Below the pieces are notes generated by a model. The model saw only the letters and a list, made by a program, of their open reading frames with translations. It had not been told where the DNA came from and did no database searches. A stretch of 64,000 nt of DNA. Source: Oligoflexales bacterium (GTDB taxonomy: Bacteria > Bdellovibrionota_B > Oligoflexia > Oligoflexales > RGVZ01). The translations under genes and the position numbers were made by a program. Shown in pieces: positions 18,078 through 32,889 of the stretch. Where the stretch lies: contig CANLUT010000001.1 of NCBI GenBank assembly GCA_947494335.1, positions 985,649 through 1,049,648 of the forward strand. The letters run 5' to 3'. Every line of letters begins with the position of its first letter. The first letter of the stretch is position 1.

Positions 18078-19961
18078 TTATAGCTCCCAAGATAGCCCGA
18101 GCACCAGAGAGTGACCTAATTTGTCTTTGTTCTGAATCGTTGTAGGAGCGTAACCAAACATAAAATTGATGTCACTAGATTCACTGACCTCGTGAGGAAG
18201 CAACAGAGCGTAGGTTCCAAGCGGTGCTTTGTCGAGATCAAGATTGTAGGAATTAATGATACGTGGTCTACCACGTCTTTTCTTGCCTTTCTTACTTTTA
18301 CCGGACGAGGCTGGATCACTTACAAATGCGTCAATGACGCCGACAACGTAGAGGCCTCCAAATGATGCCATGGAAAGACTTGCGTTCTGCTTGGCTTTTG
18401 CAATCACGTCTTTGCCTTGTTTTTCTTTTTGCGCGGTCTCCTCATCGTAAGCTTCCTGATCAGCTGGATCGATATTTTCACGCTCTGCCTGGCGTTCGGC
18501 CAAAATGGTGTTGACTTTCGTGGTATAGGAGGCAGCTGCATCAGAGTTTGATTTGTACATGAAAAGTGCTGCCGCTTCGCCGCCAAGGAAAACAAGTCCC
18601 TTGAATGCGCTACCTTTGCAGAACTGCCCAGCACCAAATGGCAGAATTTTGATAAATGCGCTGCAGTCATCTGAAGATGACTTCACTTTCTTTGCGCTGC
18701 GACTCGACATCGAGGTCGAAGGCAGTCGAGGTGGCGGAGGCATTCCGCTTCCAGATGGTTCTTTTGGCAACACAGGTTCCACAATTGGCTGGGCAGCTGC
18801 CATGGGGTCTTCCGGTGGAGGGCCAAGATAACCTCCATATGGATCGGCCACTGGCGGCGCTGCGTAAGGCTGGTAGACCGAGGGTGGTGGTGCTGGCGGT
18901 GCGTACGCATAAGGATTTGGCGGCGGCGCCATGTATCCACCGTAAGGTGAGGGCGGCGGATAAGATGGGTAGGCCGGGTAAGCAGGAGGTGCGTACATGG
19001 GCTGCGGTTGATACATCGGTGGTTGAGCGTACATTTGAGGAGGTTGATACATCGGCATAGCAGGCATCACGGGTTGAACTGGCGCTGGTGGTGGTGTCAC
19101 CATCTGCGGAGCAGTAACTGAAGGCATTGAGGGCTGCATAGGTAGCGGCGGATTAAATTCTGCCATAATTGGCTCGTCGCCAAATAGGCTGTCTTTAGAT
19201 GACTTTTTACCAACTGCTTGGGCATTACCCCCTGCCACAGGGTTAGGAAGAGGTATGGATGGTGTCTTGTTTTGTACCACAGGCTTCGGTTGTGGTTTGG
19301 GTTTTGGCTGAATTTTTTCAAGGTTGATTTTGACGACGCTCGTTTTGTTCTTCTCTAGTCTTACAGAGTTTCGAGCGGAGCGATGCCCAGGCGCTGCAAC
19401 CTCGATCACAACTGTTCCTGGATCGACATCAATTTCGTCACCTGCTGATCCATGGGCAATACCATCAATCCTTACAGAAGAATTCGGCGCATTTGAAAGA
19501 ACTTTGAGAATGGTGCGGTTTGACGGCTTCTTCGATACGGCAGCACCACGACTTCCAGCCTGCGGATTGGTACCAGCTTGAGTTGATGATGCTTTGACCG
19601 CATTAAAAAATGGAATGACTGATTCATCAACAACTTCATTGTCTTTTAGCTTGATCGCAGGGTTTGTTATCTTGGCTTTCTGAAAGGATGCTACTGCCGC
19701 GTTTTTATTGCCTGTCATGAATTGGGCTACACCGAGATACTTGTAAGTTTCGGCCAATTCGGGGCGGGTCTTCGCCTTTTTGAGAGCAGCCTTCAGCTGG
19801 GCTTCAGCGCCTTTAGCGTTATTTCTCATAAGAAGCTGCTGACCTGGTTTCCACGCCTGCGCCAAAGCGGTGTTTGTTAGCGTCGCCAAGAATACGGTAA
19901 GTGTGAAAATAATACGAGCCTTTGCCGCAAGCTTTTGCAGTCCTGGTTGTATTATGTTCAT
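18078..19961 (-). CDS. Envelope protein with TPR, PEGA domain and Pro/Tyr-rich linker
   Basis: 627 aa. The order is: signal peptide ending near ALAQA; TPR-like helices (about 40-120); a PEGA domain (about 150-215: SVRIDGIAHG, VVIEVAAPGHRSA); then about 180 residues of Pro, Met, Tyr and Gln repeats (MYQPPQMYAQPP-type). The C-terminal part carries FGAGQFCKGSAFKGLVFLGGE, shown in part, with hydrophobic segments resembling the DUF5683-type domain. It sits 44 bases downstream of the Ser/Thr kinase, which also carries a PEGA domain, and may be its substrate or envelope partner. ATG 19961 is chosen over TTG 19973; neither has a clear ribosome site. Confidence 0.75.
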   Translation of the reverse strand: MNIIQPGLQKLAAKARIIFTLTVFLATLTNTALAQAWKPGQQLLMRNNAKGAEAQLKAALKKAKTRPELAETYKYLGVAQFMTGNKNAAVASFQKAKITNPAIKLKDNEVVDESVIPFFNAVKASSTQAGTNPQAGSRGAAVSKKPSNRTILKVLSNAPNSSVRIDGIAHGSAGDEIDVDPGTVVIEVAAPGHRSARNSVRLEKNKTSVVKINLEKIQPKPKPQPKPVVQNKTPSIPLPNPVAGGNAQAVGKKSSKDSLFGDEPIMAEFNPPLPMQPSMPSVTAPQMVTPPPAPVQPVMPAMPMYQPPQMYAQPPMYQPQPMYAPPAYPAYPSYPPPSPYGGYMAPPPNPYAYAPPAPPPSVYQPYAAPPVADPYGGYLGPPPEDPMAAAQPIVEPVLPKEPSGSGMPPPPRLPSTSMSSRSAKKVKSSSDDCSAFIKILPFGAGQFCKGSAFKGLVFLGGEAAALFMYKSNSDAAASYTTKVNTILAERQAERENIDPADQEAYDEETAQKEKQGKDVIAKAKQNASLSMASFGGLYVVGVIDAFVSDPASSGKSKKGKKRRGRPRIINSYNLDLDKAPLGTYALLLPHEVSESSDINFMFGYAPTTIQNKDKLGHSLVLGLSWEL

Positions 19962-20005
19962 CAAGCTAGTCAAACTATTGATCCTCTATCGATACATGTT
20001 TAAAG

Positions 20006-22543
20006 CTATTCTTCCTTTGTGTTTGGATTCGTCTTGCTCTCCTTGAACTCCACGCTGAATGTTAATTGCTGAGCAGCGCCGGATAGGTCGATTCTCCGTC
20101 GCCGCGTGTCGCCGTTGTGCCGCATCATGACCTCGTAAATCCCCCGATCAAGACTTACTGTTTGTTGATTCTGCGAGAGAGTCAGTGTTTGTGTAGCGCG
20201 TGTTTCAATATTTTTAATAGTGACATCTGCGGGTGTCAGATTGGTGGCCAGGGTGAGGCGGTAGGCTCCGGATTTGCTCTGCTGGCTGTCACTGCGCTGC
20301 ATTTGGTATGGACCAAATTTCTGACGAGCGCCTGCTGTGATATTGATGATTTCCGTCTTGACGGTGTATCCTGCCCGTTTCAACTCAATTTTACGATTTC
20401 CTGAAGCGACCTCAATCCAGTTACTGGATGTTCCAAGGTCGTTGGTTGTTCCATGGCGACGCCCATCTATATATAGTTCTGCTGCCGGCATGCTGGAGAC
20501 TGTCAACTGCGCTTTTGCGGCTATTTGAGGTTGTACAATTGCTGACTTTTGTTGGCTAACATCGATGGCGGTACGCAAACTTGCTGAACTTATACCATCA
20601 TCAGTTTTTTCCTCGATCGTCGCCGGGTATGGCTTGAGCGATACCGGTGGAATCGCGACCATGGAGCTTGGGTTAACCGGCGCGGTATTTATTAGCGGAG
20701 TCTTGCCTACGGCGTTGGTGTTGACTTGCTTGATCTCAGGAGTACCTTTTTGGTTTTTTGGACGCTCTGCTTTTGACCCGGCCAGTTTTTTGTCTTTTGA
20801 GGTGTTTTTAATTCGTTCGTCGCCTGAGGTTGAGCTATTCGACACTGGAGAATTAGATTCTTTGATATCTTTTTGAGGAGTACTTGCAATAGCCGGTGGG
20901 GTCTGTGAGGCATCAACTAATGGTTTTGTTGAAGTCAAGATATCACTCTTCTTGCTATCGACTCGATTAGCTATATTTTTTCTGAGATCGTTTGCACTAG
21001 TTTTTTCTTTTTTGTTCTTCACAATCTGGTTAGAAAAGTTTTTGAAATGAATATTTGCATTGCGACTGGTTCCAAACCAAAGGATACCGGCAGCAATCAG
21101 CAGGAGAACGGCTGCTACGAATTTTCCGAAGCCATTGGATGATTGTCCATAATCATAATCATCACGGACCACATAACGGACTTTAGGTGCTTTTCTTGGA
21201 GCAGCAGGAACGATGCGCGAGACGGGTTTCATGTCACGACGCTTTTGTGGTGGAATCTGTTGCTGATATTGCATCTGTGACATAGGCCTCTGAGGAGCCT
21301 TTGCACTCGATTTTACATGATGCTGTTGTGGGACTTGAGTGAGCCTTTGCTGGTGCCTTCGTTCAGGCAGGTGCGCAGCAATAAAGTCAGGATTGTGGTG
21401 GCGCTTGGTAAGCTGAGGCACTGTGCGTGGAGGTAACAAATGATCCCGTCTGGTTGACCCCTGAGGTAGATTTGTTCCACTGATATCCGGACGCGGAATA
21501 GGTGAGCTTATAGCCTCTTGATTCCATTTCTTGACAGAGTTTTTCGACGGAGATTCAGATGTGATAGCTGTCTTCGGATGGCTGGTGTCTGGATTAATAA
21601 GAACGGTTGGAGCCGCTTTGTACTCTGTAACTCGCAAAATCTTTGCCAGGCGATCTCCGTAGGCCTTTGGATCCTTGAAACACCTTTCAAGTTCTTGCAA
21701 GCTACTCTCAAGCCCCATGGCCGAAAGCAATTGGTCAAGGATGACTCCAACCTCGTCGATTGATTGAGGTCGATTTTCTGGTAGAAGCTCCATGCACTTG
21801 ACGATGCATTGATCTATGTCTTGTGGAATTCCAGCCATCACAAATCGAGGATGCGCAAAGCCACCTCCAATGATTTTCATCGCGATATCAGCTGTCGAAG
21901 ATCCGGTGTATGGGAGTTTACCAGTTACCAGCTCATAGAACAGGACTCCTAAACTGTAGACATCACTGCGATGATCAACGTCTTTGCCGCGAATCTGCTC
22001 TGGCGACATGTAACTTGGCGAACCCATGAACATTCCAGTTTGCGTCATGCTGGTGATGCGCTGAATTTTTGCAATGCCAAAGTCCATCAATTTCACACCG
22101 CCATGATGCGTAATCATGACGTTTTCAGGCTTTACATCACGATGGACAACGCCATGCTCATGAGCGGTGTGGAGGGCGCGGCAGATCTCGCGTACGATAG
22201 AGGCTGCGATAACAGGGTGCAGCCATCCGTTTGGTGTTGTTTCCAAAATTTGCGCAAGATTTCTTCCGTGAATCAATTCAGTTACGATCCAAAGTTGCTT
22301 GGAGTCTTCTCCTGAGAAGTCAAAAATTTTCAGAATGTTAGGGTGATCAAATGCAGAAATGGCGCGTGCTTCATGCTGAAATCGAACCCGAATTTCATCG
22401 TGATTCTCATAGCGCTCTTTGAGAATTTTAATGGCAACATCGCGGCCGAGCTTTTCGTCAACCGCAACGTGAATAACCGCCATTCCGCCTTCGCCAATTT
22501 TGCGAAGGACGCGATAACGGTGGCCGATGAGTTCTCCACTCAT
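20006..22543 (-). CDS. Hanks-type Ser/Thr protein kinase with TM helix and C-terminal PEGA domain
   Basis: 845 aa. The N-terminal kinase domain (9-275) is complete: Gly loop GEGGMA (17-22), VAIK lysine K39, HRDVKPEN (134-141), DFG (154-156), and SPSYMSPEQ in the activation segment. A long Pro/Gln/His-rich linker follows. A single TM helix (FVAAVLLLIAAGILWF, near 475) comes next, then a Lys/Ser-rich periplasmic stalk and a PEGA domain (AELYIDGRRHGTT; IELKRAGY) near 690-760, ending with a second beta-rich repeat. It is a membrane-spanning signalling kinase whose extracytoplasmic domains probably bind envelope components. ATG 22543 is chosen, with GGGAG about 10 bases upstream. It is first in an operon with the PEGA/TPR gene and coaE. 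Confidence 0.92.
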   Translation of the reverse strand: MSGELIGHRYRVLRKIGEGGMAVIHVAVDEKLGRDVAIKILKERYENHDEIRVRFQHEARAISAFDHPNILKIFDFSGEDSKQLWIVTELIHGRNLAQILETTPNGWLHPVIAASIVREICRALHTAHEHGVVHRDVKPENVMITHHGGVKLMDFGIAKIQRITSMTQTGMFMGSPSYMSPEQIRGKDVDHRSDVYSLGVLFYELVTGKLPYTGSSTADIAMKIIGGGFAHPRFVMAGIPQDIDQCIVKCMELLPENRPQSIDEVGVILDQLLSAMGLESSLQELERCFKDPKAYGDRLAKILRVTEYKAAPTVLINPDTSHPKTAITSESPSKNSVKKWNQEAISSPIPRPDISGTNLPQGSTRRDHLLPPRTVPQLTKRHHNPDFIAAHLPERRHQQRLTQVPQQHHVKSSAKAPQRPMSQMQYQQQIPPQKRRDMKPVSRIVPAAPRKAPKVRYVVRDDYDYGQSSNGFGKFVAAVLLLIAAGILWFGTSRNANIHFKNFSNQIVKNKKEKTSANDLRKNIANRVDSKKSDILTSTKPLVDASQTPPAIASTPQKDIKESNSPVSNSSTSGDERIKNTSKDKKLAGSKAERPKNQKGTPEIKQVNTNAVGKTPLINTAPVNPSSMVAIPPVSLKPYPATIEEKTDDGISSASLRTAIDVSQQKSAIVQPQIAAKAQLTVSSMPAAELYIDGRRHGTTNDLGTSSNWIEVASGNRKIELKRAGYTVKTEIINITAGARQKFGPYQMQRSDSQQSKSGAYRLTLATNLTPADVTIKNIETRATQTLTLSQNQQTVSLDRGIYEVMMRHNGDTRRRRIDLSGAAQQLTFSVEFKESKTNPNTKEE

Positions 22544-22638
22544 GCCGATAGTACTCCCATCGAATTCCAAAAACGTGAATATTCGGGAGTTGTATCGGCA
22601 GATTTTTAGCTAAACATTAATGAGAGTTGCCCATGAAT

Positions 22639-22731: not shown

Positions 22732-24189
22732 TCAAGGGTCATGTGGCAAAATGTCATGAAAGCTCGAAAACCGCTTTTGAGGACTATAAAAACGCAGATT
22801 ACTCACGCGGCTGGTGTAAACGCAGGCAAAGCCCTCAACTTGGTAAGCGAATCGACTGCGTTCAAGTCCAACTTTCATTAACTCGCCCCAGGTTTCGTGA
22901 AGCGAGCTTTCCTTGCGTCCAAGCAGGTCTTTGATCTCGTTATCAAGCTGATCTAAAATTGGCGCTTTACCAGAAATTTTAGCCGCGTACTTGTCACGTT
23001 CTTTTTCCAAATGGTGGGCCTTTTTGGCGTCACCCTCCCTGCCTGCGATCTGGATATGTCTTTTGATCGACATCAGCTTGGAACGGATGATTTGAATTTC
23101 CTCGTCCAAAGCCTCCCGCTCGTTGGTTTTTTGCTGAATATGCTGAAAGATAGGTTTTAACTCAGCTAGTTTTTCAAGCTCGTGCTCAAGTTCCTCTACA
23201 ACAAGCAGAGTTCTCCAGTTTAGTTTTCCTTTTGATTGCATAATGTCGCCAAATATATGGTCACCCACATATAAAATCTCATCGCCGCGGTATTTAGTTA
23301 GTTTCTGAAATAAACCTGCATTGCCTCCCTGGTAAACTCTTTTGGGAAGTAAATTTGCAGAATGAGACTTTAAAAGCCCGCTTTCCGTCATCACTTCCAG
23401 AAACGGCTGGCTGCCGGTGAAAAACCCAGGCTTCCCCGATGAAACAATTGTGACGTCAAAATAATCACGCCACGACGGAAACTCATCGTGCTCCTGATCC
23501 AGGATGTAGCTCATCATGCGATTGGTGTATTCCCAGCCGGAGTTTGTAAGCAAAAAAAGTGATTTTCCACCGTCGATCAATCGAGTGAGTGCTGTTGATA
23601 AATATTTGTCTTTGCGGATGAAGCGTCCGGGGTCTGCCATGACCACGTTTTTGATGCTGCCATCAGCGTGACTGAGATCTATAAACCGACGCAAATCTCC
23701 GTATACATCACGGTAAGTTTTGCTGATTTTTTTCGGATTGCGATCCATGTAGTCGACGATCTCAACAAAAAGCTGAACCTCGCTGAGAGCGAAGAAGGTG
23801 TCTACGCTCAGAAATTCCTGTGCTTTGAAAGATTCACTATTGTAGAGACGGTGACGCGTTTCCTTGTCAAGAGGAGTGGTTCCGTGAAATGCAGTCTTAA
23901 CGTATTTATGCCCGTCAACCTTCAGGAGGTTTCCGCGTTCCATATCGACGAGTAAGCCGCGAATCAGAAAATTTGGCTTGAATTCAAGGTCCGCAAGTTC
24001 CTCCGGGTATCCGGCTTCAATGAATTTCTTTAGTGTTTCCCTGAATGCCAACGATTCAAAAGCTTCGCGGTTGTACATCACAAGGGTGTGATCCATGTCA
24101 AAACCAATGGCTTTGATCCGCTCCATATTCAGCGCGCGGTTAACGTACATGCGTTGCCATTTTTCTAATTTGCTGTATGGACTGGCCAA
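22732..24189 (-). CDS. HAD-family 5'-nucleotidase (IMP/GMP-specific type)
   Basis: 485 aa, PF05761-like. The HAD nucleophile motif DMDHTLVMY lies near residue 30, with FLLTNSGWEYTN (motif II Thr/Ser) and VGDHIFGDIMQSK (motif III acidic pair). The C-terminus has a Lys/Glu-rich coiled-coil insert (about 345-430) and ends in YSPQKRFSSFHDILPHD. Family members dephosphorylate IMP, GMP or dGMP to nucleosides. That would fit the purine genes and nucleoside importer further along, but there is no operon link. It is cytoplasmic, without a signal peptide. Confidence 0.87.
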   Translation of the reverse strand: MASPYSKLEKWQRMYVNRALNMERIKAIGFDMDHTLVMYNREAFESLAFRETLKKFIEAGYPEELADLEFKPNFLIRGLLVDMERGNLLKVDGHKYVKTAFHGTTPLDKETRHRLYNSESFKAQEFLSVDTFFALSEVQLFVEIVDYMDRNPKKISKTYRDVYGDLRRFIDLSHADGSIKNVVMADPGRFIRKDKYLSTALTRLIDGGKSLFLLTNSGWEYTNRMMSYILDQEHDEFPSWRDYFDVTIVSSGKPGFFTGSQPFLEVMTESGLLKSHSANLLPKRVYQGGNAGLFQKLTKYRGDEILYVGDHIFGDIMQSKGKLNWRTLLVVEELEHELEKLAELKPIFQHIQQKTNEREALDEEIQIIRSKLMSIKRHIQIAGREGDAKKAHHLEKERDKYAAKISGKAPILDQLDNEIKDLLGRKESSLHETWGELMKVGLERSRFAYQVEGFACVYTSRVSNLRFYSPQKRFSSFHDILPHDP

Positions 24190-24225: not shown

Positions 24226-24831
24226 CTATTTTTTTGGGGCCGTTAAGAATTTTACGCCCACTTGAACTTTTAACTTTCCTTTTAGATCCATGAATTTTCT
24301 GTTGTAGACCACTTCTCCATTCAGTGTGGTCCAATGCTTGCCATCAATGGCAACACTTATGTTCGAGAGAACAGATCCCGGTGCAAACGGCTTTGTTGTC
24401 CGATTGATGCGCAGGGATAAACCAGAGGCCGACATATCCATCAACTGCCGGCGCAGCTTGGTTTTTCCGTCATACGGGTTTATGATCTCCGCGATGACGT
24501 TTTCGTCCGGCGTGAACATGAAACGCTCCGACTGGCGTGTCTCCTCGATGAGAGAGTTTTCCTGGATTTCAAACGCCATGGATACGCCACGTGGATGGAC
24601 GTCGGTGGACTGAAATCTAAGCATTTTACACTGCAAAAAAAATTTTTCGCCCTTTGCGAATCGGCTGATGAATTCTGGTTTAACCATATTTTCAAGGACG
24701 ACCGTGTTCCCATCAATTTCTTTGATGATAGTCTGAAATGCGATATCAAGCCCGCTGCTGCTGATTAAAACTGGAGTTTTCGAGCGCTTGCAGTCATTGA
24801 GCACTACTGGAACATCCTGATTTTGAATCAC
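24226..24831 (-). CDS. PilZ-domain protein (predicted c-di-GMP receptor)
   Basis: 201 aa. The N-terminal beta-rich half (1-95) resembles the YcgR-N/PilZN fold. The C-terminal PilZ domain has both nucleotide motifs: R99QSER103 (RxxxR) and D132MSASG137 (D/N-x-S-x-x-G). Such proteins bind cyclic di-GMP and switch partner proteins controlling motility or exopolysaccharide. Its start codon overlaps the stop of the TPR-barrel gene (24828-24831, ATGA), giving tight translational coupling. It has no signal peptide, so it works in the cytoplasm while its operon partner is in the outer membrane. Confidence 0.9.
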   Translation of the reverse strand: MIQNQDVPVVLNDCKRSKTPVLISSSGLDIAFQTIIKEIDGNTVVLENMVKPEFISRFAKGEKFFLQCKMLRFQSTDVHPRGVSMAFEIQENSLIEETRQSERFMFTPDENVIAEIINPYDGKTKLRRQLMDMSASGLSLRINRTTKPFAPGSVLSNISVAIDGKHWTTLNGEVVYNRKFMDLKGKLKVQVGVKFLTAPKK

Positions 24832-26588
24832 TGTTCGGCGTCCTTTGTAAATGCTGCATCAGCAAATCTTTCGGTCATGCGTGACACCCGTTTTGTACCC
24901 GGAAATGCCCAGATGGCACTGAACCAAATGGTATTTTTGCTCCCGGAATAAACTTTGAGGTTGCTACTATTTTCAACCATCGTGTAGGTGCCCTCAAAGC
25001 GCGTATTGGTACTTTTGTTATAATATAAGCCAATTTGGATCATGTTGCCAGTGTCAGACCGTGGGCAAGATGCAGGTGTCCCCTCGTTTGTGTTGGGTAC
25101 TAAAGCTCCGCATCCTCCAGTTTTGATGTGAGGGAGCTTGTAATCATCTTGATAAAAGCCAACCAGAGCAGACGCTCCGATGCCTTTATAAATGTTATAG
25201 TCGGCGGATGCTATGCCGCCGCGCCGCGTGTAGTCCAGCCAGTAGTCGTTGTAAATAAACTCATATTGAAAAATATCGAAGCTAGTCTCTAGTCTTTGTG
25301 CTGGATAGTCCATGGCGTGCGTAAAAGCGACGCTAACGGCAGGGTCACCGTTGTTTCCCAATAGGTCATGGGTTTTATTGCTGTGTTCGGGGCTCTGATT
25401 ATGTATTTCTTTTCTTAAATAGAGGGAAAACATTGAGCGCATAGTTGGCGACCATGACCATCCGACCCAAGGCAAAAGCAACTGCGTATCTGTTTGCGAT
25501 GTTACAACTTTGAGGGATGACTCGTCTGGGCTTGGAAAAAAACTTGATCCTAGTCTCTGAAACTCAAGTCTACCATATGCGCCCACGAATAAGTTGTCAG
25601 TTATCTGCCGGCGCACATCGCCAAAGAACTGGTGGCTTCGTTCGAGCATGTCGCCACGCAGCGGGAAATAATCAAGGCTTAGGCCTTCTTCAAACCACGA
25701 CAAAATACCGTTTATATCCATCAGCCATTGCTGCTTATACGTGTAGCCGGCAAATGACGTCGCGCCTTTCTGGCGCATTGGACCGATACCAATGGATGCG
25801 TTGACTGTCATTGCGGTATCGGTGACAGGTGGCCTGACAAGTGTGCCGGAACCATCTTCCGTCCGTATCGGCTCGTAGCCAGTTGTCTCGATGTTGAGGC
25901 CTCCGACCTGAACCCTCCAGAAATGTGGCACTTTAAAAAGCGACCACGGATGATACTTAAATATTGTCAACTCTGGATCCGGGCGCTCAAATCCTGAGAT
26001 GTCGTCTCTGGTTTTGTTTTCAGACATTGATTTCAATAGGTCTTTAACGTTCTGCGCCTCGGGACCTCGCGGGAACTTTTGCGCATAAGTTGTCAGCCAT
26101 TGTCTTGCTTTGGCGTCATCCGCGGCACGGTAGTGCGCTACCGCCAGTTCATACGTCGCCTTGGCTCCGTATTCGTCCGGCCAATTCGCAGCAAACTCCC
26201 AGTAGCGAATAGCCTCTTTCTCCGCCCCGAGAACTGCGATGCACATGCCTTGGTAAAAATAGTTAAATGACTTGTCGGGAGATTGGCGTTGAATACGCTG
26301 CAGGGTTTGCAGAGCTAGCTTAACCTGTCCTGAATGATAGTAGGCGGCGGCCAGCTGATTCCAGGCGCGGTAGTCCGCAGGGAACGAGCGCAGGTGTTTT
26401 CGGTAGAAGGGAATAGCCCTGTCCCAGTTTCCCTTTGCGAATTCCCCTTGAGCGGTCGCATAGAGGTTTTGCGGCATCCCAGGCTTAGATTGTGGAGCGT
26501 TTGGCGCGCTTTTTGCGTCATTGTGCCAGGGTGACGTAACCATTAGCATGATAAAAAGAAACCCTTTTATCCATCGGCAGGTCAGCAT
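24828..26588 (-). CDS. TPR-domain outer membrane beta-barrel protein
   Basis: 586 aa. Signal peptide (RWIKGFLFIMLMVTS, cleavage near KSA), then about four TPR units (45-190; ANGDFxKAxxFY-type helices such as KGNWDRAIPFYRKHL and GQVKLALQTLQRI). From about 215 to the end is an aromatic-rich, alternating beta pattern typical of a large outer-membrane barrel (SFAGYTYKQQWLMDI; TRFEGTYTMVE; IWFSAIWAF). This order resembles the exopolysaccharide exporters PgaA and BcsC, though I see no direct sequence signature of either. It overlaps the downstream PilZ gene by 4 bases. ATG 26588 has GAGGGG 6 bases before it and shares CATG with the start of the opposite gene. Confidence 0.75.
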   Translation of the reverse strand: MLTCRWIKGFLFIMLMVTSPWHNDAKSAPNAPQSKPGMPQNLYATAQGEFAKGNWDRAIPFYRKHLRSFPADYRAWNQLAAAYYHSGQVKLALQTLQRIQRQSPDKSFNYFYQGMCIAVLGAEKEAIRYWEFAANWPDEYGAKATYELAVAHYRAADDAKARQWLTTYAQKFPRGPEAQNVKDLLKSMSENKTRDDISGFERPDPELTIFKYHPWSLFKVPHFWRVQVGGLNIETTGYEPIRTEDGSGTLVRPPVTDTAMTVNASIGIGPMRQKGATSFAGYTYKQQWLMDINGILSWFEEGLSLDYFPLRGDMLERSHQFFGDVRRQITDNLFVGAYGRLEFQRLGSSFFPSPDESSLKVVTSQTDTQLLLPWVGWSWSPTMRSMFSLYLRKEIHNQSPEHSNKTHDLLGNNGDPAVSVAFTHAMDYPAQRLETSFDIFQYEFIYNDYWLDYTRRGGIASADYNIYKGIGASALVGFYQDDYKLPHIKTGGCGALVPNTNEGTPASCPRSDTGNMIQIGLYYNKSTNTRFEGTYTMVENSSNLKVYSGSKNTIWFSAIWAFPGTKRVSRMTERFADAAFTKDAEQ

Positions 26589-27483
26589 GAGCGCCCCTCA
26601 TTTAAAGACTGGAGACGGCTCTCGCGGCAAGCGAGAATCAGCTTGCGTGGGAATTCATTTGTCGGGGCCCAATGCCAAGAAATCAGCACTCGTAGTCCTC
26701 GTTAACAGTCAGGAAGGTTCTCAGTTTTTATCATTATATGAAAAGATTGGCTCAGTTGGCAGTTTATTTTCTGACGAGCGCATTATTGATATTTTGAAAC
26801 TGGTTCCGTCGCTGGACGCGGTCTTCGTGGACTGCCCGATTTCTGAGCCGCCTTGCGTCAATTGTGAGCGGCCCGTTTGCCCTGGAGTTGTGCGATGTGA
26901 GGACGTAGCTGTCGGTATGATGATGGCTATCGAACAAAAACGCGGACGCAAAGGCGGCCACAAGCTTCGCCCACTTAATCCGCAAAATCTGAGGCTTTGG
27001 GATGCTATGTACGGTCGGGGAGGAGAGTTTGGAAAAATGGAGCCGACCTACAGCGCAAATTTGGCTCCGCTCGTGGTGAGAGCCAAAACCTTACAGCGCC
27101 GACTGCGTATGGATTTGCCGAAAATTGATCTGCGGGAAACCCATGTGCCATTTCTCTTGAAACAATTGGAAGTGACGTTCGATAGACCTGGGTGGTCGAC
27201 AAACTATCGTAACTTTGAAGCGGGGTTTGAGACTCGCTGCGAGGTTCTCTCTGAGATTGCGGCCAAGAGAACGGCGAAAGTGATGCCCAAGCTCAACATC
27301 AATTTGACCGAAGATGCCATTGATTCTGTGGCAGCCAGTGTGGAGTCGTTTCATGCGTTTATGGCGGCAGCCATGGCCCATTGGTCTCAAATTGGCTTAG
27401 CTAGAGATCGCACGCCCTATTTTCAAGAAAATTTGGGCTGGGTCGACCTACTCAAAGCCGAGGCGGCGCAGATTAATCCTTAA
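26587..27483 (+). CDS. DUF429-like predicted RNase H-fold protein
   Basis: 298 aa. The N-terminus has the beta-strand pattern of an RNase H-like fold (CVGIHLSGPNAKKSALVVL, then DAVFVDCPISEPP). DUF429 proteins show a similar VD-x-P element. A Cys cluster (CVNCERPVCPGVVRC, residues about 96-110) could bind zinc. The C-terminal helix DSVAASVESFHAFMAAAMAHW matches the last helix of such folds. The assignment is by pattern only. ATG 26587 overlaps the divergent start at 26588; an in-frame ATG at 26548 lacks a ribosome site. Its stop overlaps the stop of the convergent aminotransferase gene. Confidence 0.55.
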   Translation: MSAPHLKTGDGSRGKRESACVGIHLSGPNAKKSALVVLVNSQEGSQFLSLYEKIGSVGSLFSDERIIDILKLVPSLDAVFVDCPISEPPCVNCERPVCPGVVRCEDVAVGMMMAIEQKRGRKGGHKLRPLNPQNLRLWDAMYGRGGEFGKMEPTYSANLAPLVVRAKTLQRRLRMDLPKIDLRETHVPFLLKQLEVTFDRPGWSTNYRNFEAGFETRCEVLSEIAAKRTAKVMPKLNINLTEDAIDSVAASVESFHAFMAAAMAHWSQIGLARDRTPYFQENLGWVDLLKAEAAQINP

Positions 27484-28643: not shown

Positions 28644-28810
28644 ATTTGATCCTTCTTGGGTTTTTACCAAATTTCAAATGAAGCTCTGAGGGTATACCTG
28701 ATAACAGCGACCGAATCCAAATGGTAAAACCATAGAATTGTTTTTTAAAGGTTCCCCAGGAAAGTCCGATAGATGCGATGGATAATGGGTTGAAAATGAG
28801 GGGGATTTTT

Positions 28811-29536
28811 ATGCGTATTAGGATGGCTGGAGCCACCGACATCGGTCGCAAGCGAAAAGCCAATCAAGACAGCATATTTTATGATGAATCACACGGATTA
28901 GGAGTTGTTGCTGATGGAATCGGCGGACGACGTGGGGGAGAGGTGGCATCATCCATTGCCGTAAACTCCATGAAGCGAGTCTTTCTTGGAACAGAAAGCA
29001 TCCGGCACGGCGAGGTTAACAGCTTTTTGGTCCGCGCCATTGATGAGCTAAATTCCGATATTATTGCCCGTGGGCAGATGGAACCTGACATTGCGGGGAT
29101 GGGAACAACAGTGAACTGCTTGGTTTTTGTTGGTGATCGACTGCATCTAGCCCATGTGGGCGATAGTCGCACCTACATGTACTATGGTGGTCACTTGTTC
29201 CAGTTAACCATTGACCACAATGTGGGCACATTTTCATCCAAAGGCTGGTTAAATCCGGATCAAGTCCAACCGGGCGCCAAAGACGAGGCCTTAGTAAAGG
29301 CATTGGGTCTCTCACCGAATTGTGAAGCTGATATTTATGAAGTCGCGCTGAAGCCAGGGCAGATCTTTTTGAGCTGTTCTGATGGCTTAAGCGGGATGCT
29401 TCCAGACAATGAAATTGCAAATATCATCCGGAAAAACTACTCGAAATTTGACGCGATACCGCAGTTATTGATTGCAGCCGCCAACGAGGCCGGTGGGCGA
29501 GATAATATTACTGTGCTGCTGAGCGAGGTTAGATGA
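28811..29536 (+). CDS. PP2C-family Ser/Thr protein phosphatase
   Basis: 241 aa, the size of bacterial Stp/PstP catalytic domains. Metal-binding and family motifs are complete: NQDS (19-21), VVADGIGGRRGGE (D35/G36), GMGTTV, LAHVGDSRTYMY, SCSDGLSGML and GGRDNITVLL near the C-terminus. It removes phosphate from Ser/Thr in a Mn/Mg-dependent way and is the natural counterpart of Hanks kinases such as the one at 20006-22543. ATG 28811 has GAGGGGGA upstream. Its stop overlaps the start of the next gene (ATGA at 29533), so the two are coupled. Confidence 0.93.
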   Translation: MRIRMAGATDIGRKRKANQDSIFYDESHGLGVVADGIGGRRGGEVASSIAVNSMKRVFLGTESIRHGEVNSFLVRAIDELNSDIIARGQMEPDIAGMGTTVNCLVFVGDRLHLAHVGDSRTYMYYGGHLFQLTIDHNVGTFSSKGWLNPDQVQPGAKDEALVKALGLSPNCEADIYEVALKPGQIFLSCSDGLSGMLPDNEIANIIRKNYSKFDAIPQLLIAAANEAGGRDNITVLLSEVR

Positions 29537-30963: not shown

Positions 30964-32889
30964 ATGGCCAGACGTAACCTCAGAATTGAAGTGCTAGCAC
31001 GGTCTTGTTCCGTGATGCTGTTGCTTCAACTGTGTTTTGCGGATGCGGCTCTTGCTCAACGCGCGCGTTCCCAAACAACCAAGCCTTCCGCACAATCTGC
31101 GAAACAGCAAAACCCCTCACCTCCGACCAATATCCAGCGTCAAGCACAGATCCAACAAAAAAATAGAAAACTTAATGGTGGTGAGCTGTACTCAAAAGCG
31201 CGCGAATTTTTCGCGGCTGGTCGTTACGCTGAGGCTATCAGGTATGCTGCCGCAGCACAGCGACGGACTCGGCAGTCAAAATTACCGACCGTGCTGGTAG
31301 CGCAGAGTTACTATCGATTGGGTAAGTTCAAGCGAGCTGCGAAATTGTTTTTGATGGTGCCGACCAGTGAGATTCCGAAAGAGGCTGCGGTTGATTACCT
31401 GTTAACCATGTTTTCCGCCCGAAGATACCGGGAGGTGATTCGAGGTTATTCCCTCATACCCGATAACCATCCTTATAAGGATGTTGCGAAGTTTTACACT
31501 GGCGTATCGTTTGCGCAGTTTAGGCTGTACCAGAAGGCTCAGTATTTTCTGCGAAATGCGCGCAAACTGCCGCCATCTCTCATCTCCCAAAAGCGAGCAT
31601 TCCTGAGCGAGATTGATACCGTCTTGGACCGCGAGCGCGGGGTTGCTTTAGATCAAGGGCAGGCGGGGACTCCTTTTTATTTTTACTCGGTGCCGAGTGC
31701 TCCTCCGCCACCACAAGTGCCTGAGCCTATTCTTCCCGGTACACCAGGAAAACCAGCGCCTGCGCCGAAGCCTGCACCACCCGTCGGTCCGTCGACATCA
31801 TATCTTGCTAAAATTGGTTTTGATTTTTCGCAAAAATCGACATTTAGCGATTACAATGGATTTAGAGAAGAGCGTTCCGAAAGCCGCACTCCGGGAGCAT
31901 CGGCGCTACTTGGTCTCAAGTATCTTGGTTCACCGCGCCCCTTTGGGGCGCAACCTGCCCTTGATCTAGCAATCAATCCTGGGTACAGCCACTCGGAAAG
32001 TGTCAAGTCTTCAAGTAGTCTAGTGGCTAATGAAAATGATCCTGACACTATTCAAAATATTGTCACTAAAAGCGAGTCATCGTCCTATACCGCAAGCAAT
32101 ACCTACGGCATTACAGGGCTGTATCCCGTAAGTGACCCAGTTGATGTGAGTGCAAGCTATACGGTCAGTGATTCTTACGCCAAGGCGAACCCAAAGAATC
32201 TGTCATCCTCCGCCACGGCGGCCTTGAAACTGGCAGTCGAATTGGAGCTTTTCAAGTTTGATCTCGGTTTTGACAGCATTGCAAACACATCGAAGGCGTC
32301 TAGCGCAACAAACAGAACAAACTCACTCATCAAGGTTAATGCAACGAGGAATGGAGAGAACTCTACAACGAGCTTGAGTCTATCCAAGCTTGATATGGGA
32401 AAGCCTGAACTTGAAAGTGACGGCGTAAAATCAACAACGACGGCGCAGCTGTCATGGCTTCGTAACTTTGATGATATTGCATTAGGACTATCCGCTCGTA
32501 AGATTGATAAGGTCCGTCTTCCCGGGAAGGCGAAAGGTGTTGCCCTGAGCGAGTTATCTGGAAAGATAGAGGGTTCATATAACCTTAGTGTTGGCGTCTC
32601 AGCGGTCGGCAGCGCTTCTTACACTCAAATTAGCAACCTTCCCGTGATCAAGGGCAAAGGCGAAGCGGCGGAGGCTCCTGAGGAAGCGATGGCTAGTGGC
32701 TCAGCGCTTAAGTACACGGCGAGTTTGAAAGTTGCGCCTGCTAGCTTCGTTTCTCTGAGTGCATCCTATGAATACACTGACCGGCAGCTAACTATAGGGG
32801 AAGAGCTCCTCAAGAAGAGGATGTTGCTCGATAATTGGAGCCTGCAAAATGTAACGTCAATCGGCATCAGTGCTAGCTACAGTTTCTAA
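30964..32889 (+). CDS. TPR-domain outer membrane beta-barrel protein (second copy of this architecture)
   Basis: 641 aa. Signal peptide ending near ALAQ, a Gln/Ser/Pro-rich stretch, TPR-like repeats (about 70-220: AREFFAAGRYAEAIRYAAAA; SYYRLGKFKRAAKLF), and a Pro-rich hinge (APPPPQVPEPILPGTPGKP). A beta-rich C-terminal domain (270-641) has alternating Ser/Thr/Tyr strands and ends in SYSF, an outer-membrane assembly-type C-terminus. The order matches the protein at 24828-26588, although the sequences are not obviously alike. It follows the PP2C and GYF-like genes by 57 bases and is likely in the same operon. Substrate or partner unknown. Confidence 0.72.
   Translation: MARRNLRIEVLARSCSVMLLLQLCFADAALAQRARSQTTKPSAQSAKQQNPSPPTNIQRQAQIQQKNRKLNGGELYSKAREFFAAGRYAEAIRYAAAAQRRTRQSKLPTVLVAQSYYRLGKFKRAAKLFLMVPTSEIPKEAAVDYLLTMFSARRYREVIRGYSLIPDNHPYKDVAKFYTGVSFAQFRLYQKAQYFLRNARKLPPSLISQKRAFLSEIDTVLDRERGVALDQGQAGTPFYFYSVPSAPPPPQVPEPILPGTPGKPAPAPKPAPPVGPSTSYLAKIGFDFSQKSTFSDYNGFREERSESRTPGASALLGLKYLGSPRPFGAQPALDLAINPGYSHSESVKSSSSLVANENDPDTIQNIVTKSESSSYTASNTYGITGLYPVSDPVDVSASYTVSDSYAKANPKNLSSSATAALKLAVELELFKFDLGFDSIANTSKASSATNRTNSLIKVNATRNGENSTTSLSLSKLDMGKPELESDGVKSTTTAQLSWLRNFDDIALGLSARKIDKVRLPGKAKGVALSELSGKIEGSYNLSVGVSAVGSASYTQISNLPVIKGKGEAAEAPEEAMASGSALKYTASLKVAPASFVSLSASYEYTDRQLTIGEELLKKRMLLDNWSLQNVTSIGISASYSF

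Follow-up and report, generated by a model that had tools for sequence, protein, structure and literature searches.

Does a PilZ gene that starts inside the stop codon of a gene for a TPR and beta-barrel protein belong to a polysaccharide exporter, to some other c-di-GMP-linked envelope system, or to an operon whose products have little to do with one another? This question is raised by the window studied here, that is, the whole stretch of 64,000 nucleotides that was analysed. A sequence-only reading had placed the start of the PilZ gene (PZ) inside the stop of the TPR and beta-barrel gene (BAR), and both open reading frames were recovered in this arrangement on the minus strand. Together with a third gene (NT5) and their neighbours, they occupy the following positions.

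18078-19973, minus strand: TPR/PEGA/DUF5683 protein, an order-level neighbour
20006-22570, minus strand: Ser/Thr protein kinase with a PEGA domain, the usual next gene in the order and outside the core in the sister order
22732-24189, minus strand: NT5, cytosolic IMP/GMP-type 5'-nucleotidase (PF05761), 36 nt after PZ
24226-24831, minus strand: PZ, open reading frame with a GTG start at 24831; YcgR-like PilZ protein of 201 aa with two domains and intact R99xxxR103 and D132xS134xxG137
24828-26588, minus strand: BAR, open reading frame with a TGA stop; 586 aa, with a signal peptide (about 1-28), a TPR arm (42-189), a predicted barrel (222-562) and a C-terminal helical tail (566-585)
26587-27483, plus strand: divergent gene of about 300 aa without a Pfam match; likely ATG at 26587-26589, the open reading frame formally opening at 26521
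28778-29536, plus strand: PP2C phosphatase, a divergent order-level neighbour

The GTG start codon of PZ and the TGA stop codon of BAR share four bases (GTGA), and the sequence AAAGGA is located about 9 nt upstream of the PZ GTG. The same four-base overlap occurs in the same genus and in one other family; elsewhere small gaps or different overlaps are found, so that the earlier description of the two genes as translationally fused is too strong, whereas the overlap itself stands. Scans for sigma-70 promoters and for terminators around these presumably co-transcribed genes gave scores no better than those of shuffled sequences.

PZ matched the PilZ family (PF07238) with E=7e-7 and 30 bits, as compared to a gathering score of 22.5, and its N-terminal half gave a weak YcgR/PilZN match (E=0.04); in the PDB, no sequence match was obtained at E<=1. 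The structure model of PZ, for which 5 sequences were used, was of poor quality, with a mean pLDDT of 54, and served for the fold search alone, where Foldseek with this low-confidence query matched MrkH, PP4397, YcgR and VCA0042 over both halves of the protein. The residues R99, R103, D132, S134 and G137 are invariant across 29 aligned PZ homologues and are kept in the sister order too, so that at the level of the motifs the earlier assignment as a c-di-GMP receptor is borne out, and we infer that PZ binds c-di-GMP. In f7 (L121, L122), a reduced family in which FliG was not detected, the Asp of the second motif is replaced by Ser (SxSxxG), and in G004 the PZ gene is split into two frames. Four GGDEF domains are encoded in the bacterium's own genome, indicating that c-di-GMP is probably produced there. 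As PZ lacks a signal peptide, it must be cytoplasmic.

BAR starts with an apparent signal peptide, which is followed by TPR helices in residues 42-189 (Pfam TPR_19, E=1e-12). The large barrel that had been read from the sequence reappeared in an AlphaFold2 model built from five homologues, in which residues 222-562 form 14 long strands; confidence in this model is moderate, given a mean pLDDT of 64 and a pTM of 0.45. In the model, the strands are arranged as 7 hairpins with long loops alternating with turns of 2-4 residues, as would be expected of an up-and-down outer-membrane barrel whose two ends both face the periplasm, and BAR is accordingly predicted to sit in the outer membrane with a periplasmic TPR arm. 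Cys493 and Cys508, invariant in 28 aligned homologues, both fall within one long predicted surface loop (485-510), so that a disulphide likely closes this loop. Also, a conserved helical tail of 20 residues follows the last strand. When the model was used as a query for Foldseek, the best E value was obtained for BcsC, which likewise combines TPRs with a barrel and ranks first for that reason; OmpG and CymA, both of which are 14-stranded, were matched with TMt 0.61 and 0.55, respectively. No barrel match for the BAR barrel was found in Pfam or NCBIfam. The TPR arm is absent in relatives from families f12 and f11 that keep the barrel, and in f12 a proline-rich stretch takes its place. In G028 (L125), a diverged barrel-like open reading frame of 442 aa, missed by the profile and with the LIPW motif kept, is located directly before NT5.

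For NT5 the assignment is clear, with a full-length match to PF05761 of 488 bits and the cytosolic IMP-GMP specific 5'-nucleotidase (PDB 2bde/4g63) as the closest solved structure (E=1e-79). Its HAD motifs (DxDxT, TNS and GDHxxGD) are intact in most copies checked, and the lack of a signal peptide indicates a cytosolic protein.

In order to see how widely this arrangement occurs, gene order was computed across the phylum-level group, which comprised 56-58 genomes. A public genome collection contributed four named relatives; these metagenome assemblies carry the labels Oligoflexales, Pseudobacteriovorax or Bdellovibrio, from which we infer the class and order names. PZ was found in 40 genomes, and BAR is located directly before it in 39 of these (a contig break occurs in G017), the exception being G037, where BAR is missing. 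Clearly, this adjacency is far beyond chance, and the pairing is ancient and real; it extends over most of one order and part of another, in agreement with the deep conservation that had been asked of a genuine pair. PZ also adjoins NT5 in all 37 genomes that carry both, so that the two-gene system proposed earlier holds as a pair and fails as a strict twosome, the nucleotidase gene being the usual third member. In sister family f12, which belongs to another order, BAR, PZ and NT5 stand together while every flanking gene is different (L112-L114, L130), and the triad is therefore the core, with the other neighbours, CoaE among them, conserved at the level of the order only.

The members of the triad can nevertheless come apart. 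BAR and PZ are absent together, which speaks for the pair, from all 8 genomes of genus g25 of f12, 7 of which have NT5. In family f11, BAR-NT5 occurs without PZ in G022, G031 and G042 and PZ-NT5 without BAR in G037, indicating that neither BAR nor PZ strictly needs the other, and families f4 and f7 keep the BAR-PZ pair and lack NT5. The correlation between BAR and PZ distances beyond shared ancestry was weak (partial r 0.29). The linkage of NT5 suggests a guanine-nucleotide theme, in which c-di-GMP would be sensed and GMP/IMP broken down; NT5 may also be a housekeeping enzyme, since it is found alone as well.

The surroundings of the triad have features of their own. BAR on the minus strand and the divergent gene on the plus strand have overlapping start codons in the sequence CATG (26586-26589), so that neither gene has a conventional upstream region, and overlaps or very short gaps between the two recur in relatives. 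The divergent gene of about 300 aa adjoins BAR in most of the order and carries the motifs GIHLSGPNAxK, VFVDCP and PPCVxC. The PEGA-containing kinase followed by the TPR/PEGA/DUF5683 gene (18078-22570) faces the PP2C gene (28778-29536), the triad being enclosed by this conserved kinase-phosphatase locus. Downstream of PP2C and of a 457-aa protein without a Pfam match, a second exported TPR and beta-rich protein, possibly a barrel, is encoded at 30964-32889, a position conserved in many relatives.

PilZ control of synthase-dependent polysaccharide systems is established, and BAR might be a reduced exporter of the PgaA/BcsC kind that is activated by PZ upon binding of c-di-GMP and whose synthase is encoded elsewhere. 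The order of TPRs and barrel and the first rank of BcsC in the Foldseek search would be in agreement with such an exporter. However, the kinship with PgaA and BcsC that had been suggested from the sequence was lost on closer comparison: the barrel part of BAR aligned with neither of the E. coli proteins (hhalign E 0.06 for PgaA and 0.33 for BcsC), the sole significant match being one of generic TPRs with TPRs, and the TPR arm is dispensable in relatives that retain the barrel. Also, the BAR model has, at moderate confidence, 14 strands, as compared to 16 in the barrels of PgaA (PMC8406197) and BcsC (PMC11379886). As stated earlier for the pair, no synthase was found in the conserved neighbourhood of the triad; BcsB was detected in none of 58 genomes, with E. 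coli serving as positive control, and PgaC did not exceed the cut-off in any of the 58. Two f7 genomes carrying the pair gave no match to a GT2 model that matched in 14 of 14 control genomes, although f7 genomes are 82-85% complete and have lost the Asp of the PilZ motif. The BAR-PZ unit does not belong to the known polysaccharide exporters, and an exporter in a loose sense is the most that is possible, a reading that we consider quite unlikely.

DUF560 proteins have been described as a TPR domain plus a 14-strand barrel (PMC8406197), an architecture which the BAR model fits at a similar protein size, and BAR may work like a Slam-type or type XI-like translocon, moving surface lipoproteins or proteins outward while the TPR arm handles the putative cargo. 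Yet PF04575 did not match BAR at E<=1, none of the genes beside it was recognised as coding for a conserved lipoprotein cargo, and in our judgement a translocon of this type is improbable. We think equally little of a nucleotide or nucleoside porin for purine salvage, in which NT5 would process GMP/IMP and PZ would read the guanine-nucleotide signal state. The similarity of NT5 to the IMP-GMP specific nucleotidase, the adjacency of BAR and NT5 that outlasts the loss of PZ in f11, and the resemblance of the barrel to the OmpG and CymA porins all argue for it; on the other hand, NT5 is cytosolic and occurs in many genomes without BAR, and NT5 is missing from f4 and f7, which do have BAR. With its two-domain YcgR-like fold, PZ could also be a true YcgR, braking the flagellum, whose gene is simply co-transcribed with that of an unrelated porin. 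However, the pair is kept in genomes with no FliG_C match (G015, G019, G021) or with weak ones (G011, G012), and genus g25 has FliG yet no PZ; as the pair persists where FliG is undetected, a flagellar brake is very unlikely. Finally, PZ might gate or switch the TPR-barrel through an inner-membrane link while NT5 controls the local guanine pool, which would make the unit a c-di-GMP-controlled outer-membrane translocon or channel without a synthase; we regard this proposal, too, as unlikely.

The explanation that we prefer, and to which we give an even chance of being right, is a lineage-specific envelope operon in which a porin or surface-anchor/translocon is co-expressed with a c-di-GMP receptor as a lifestyle module. 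BAR would be a 14-stranded outer-membrane barrel acting as a porin or as a surface anchor or translocon, and its TPR arm, periplasmic and present in most species, would dock a periplasmic partner. PZ would be a cytoplasmic c-di-GMP receptor that tunes the lifestyle programme shared with BAR to changes in c-di-GMP, and NT5 a cytoplasmic GMP/IMP nucleotidase in the same unit. Because a cytoplasmic PZ and a BAR in the outer membrane are in separate compartments and cannot touch, PZ is proposed to act via a cytoplasmic or inner-membrane partner encoded elsewhere. Any functional coupling of PZ to BAR would then consist either of an inner-membrane link encoded elsewhere or of mere co-expression within a lifestyle programme; we favour the latter, with our confidence about evenly divided.

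PilZ receptor, outer-membrane barrel and 5'-nucleotidase are each of a known kind. For the fixed BAR-PZ-NT5 combination and for the barrel family, no description was found in the literature searched, the coverage of which was incomplete, and as no curated Pfam or NCBIfam barrel model covers the BAR barrel, it represents a new family to be characterised. A PilZ receptor whose gene is linked to that of an outer-membrane barrel, with no polymer synthase alongside, departs from the familiar synthase-linked c-di-GMP systems. Since the pairing reaches so deep, across most of one order and part of another, it offers a good starting point for studying the link between c-di-GMP and the cell surface in little-studied relatives of predatory bacteria.

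When compared to known systems, BAR shares with BcsC and PgaA a TPR arm followed by a C-terminal outer-membrane barrel, with a c-di-GMP protein nearby, and differs from them by its 14 strands, by a single short TPR arm, which is lost in relatives, by the lack of profile similarity in the barrel and by a unit without a synthase. With Slam/DUF560/type XI proteins it has in common the short TPR domain and the 14-strand barrel, from which it is set apart by the missing PF04575 match and cargo lipoprotein neighbour. OmpG and CymA, which are monomeric 14-stranded porins, are alike in the predicted barrel fold; in contrast, BAR shows no sequence relation to them and adds the TPR arm, the Cys loop and the C-terminal helical tail. 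NT5 is a clear member of the cytosolic IMP-GMP 5'-nucleotidases (PF05761) and differs from them in its genomic linkage to the PilZ and barrel genes. Similarly, PZ resembles YcgR, MrkH, PP4397 and VCA0042 in combining an N-terminal domain with a PilZ domain that carries RxxxR and DxSxxG, whereas, unlike YcgR-type proteins, it also occurs in genomes without detected FliG and has an outer-membrane barrel and a nucleotidase as its fixed partners.
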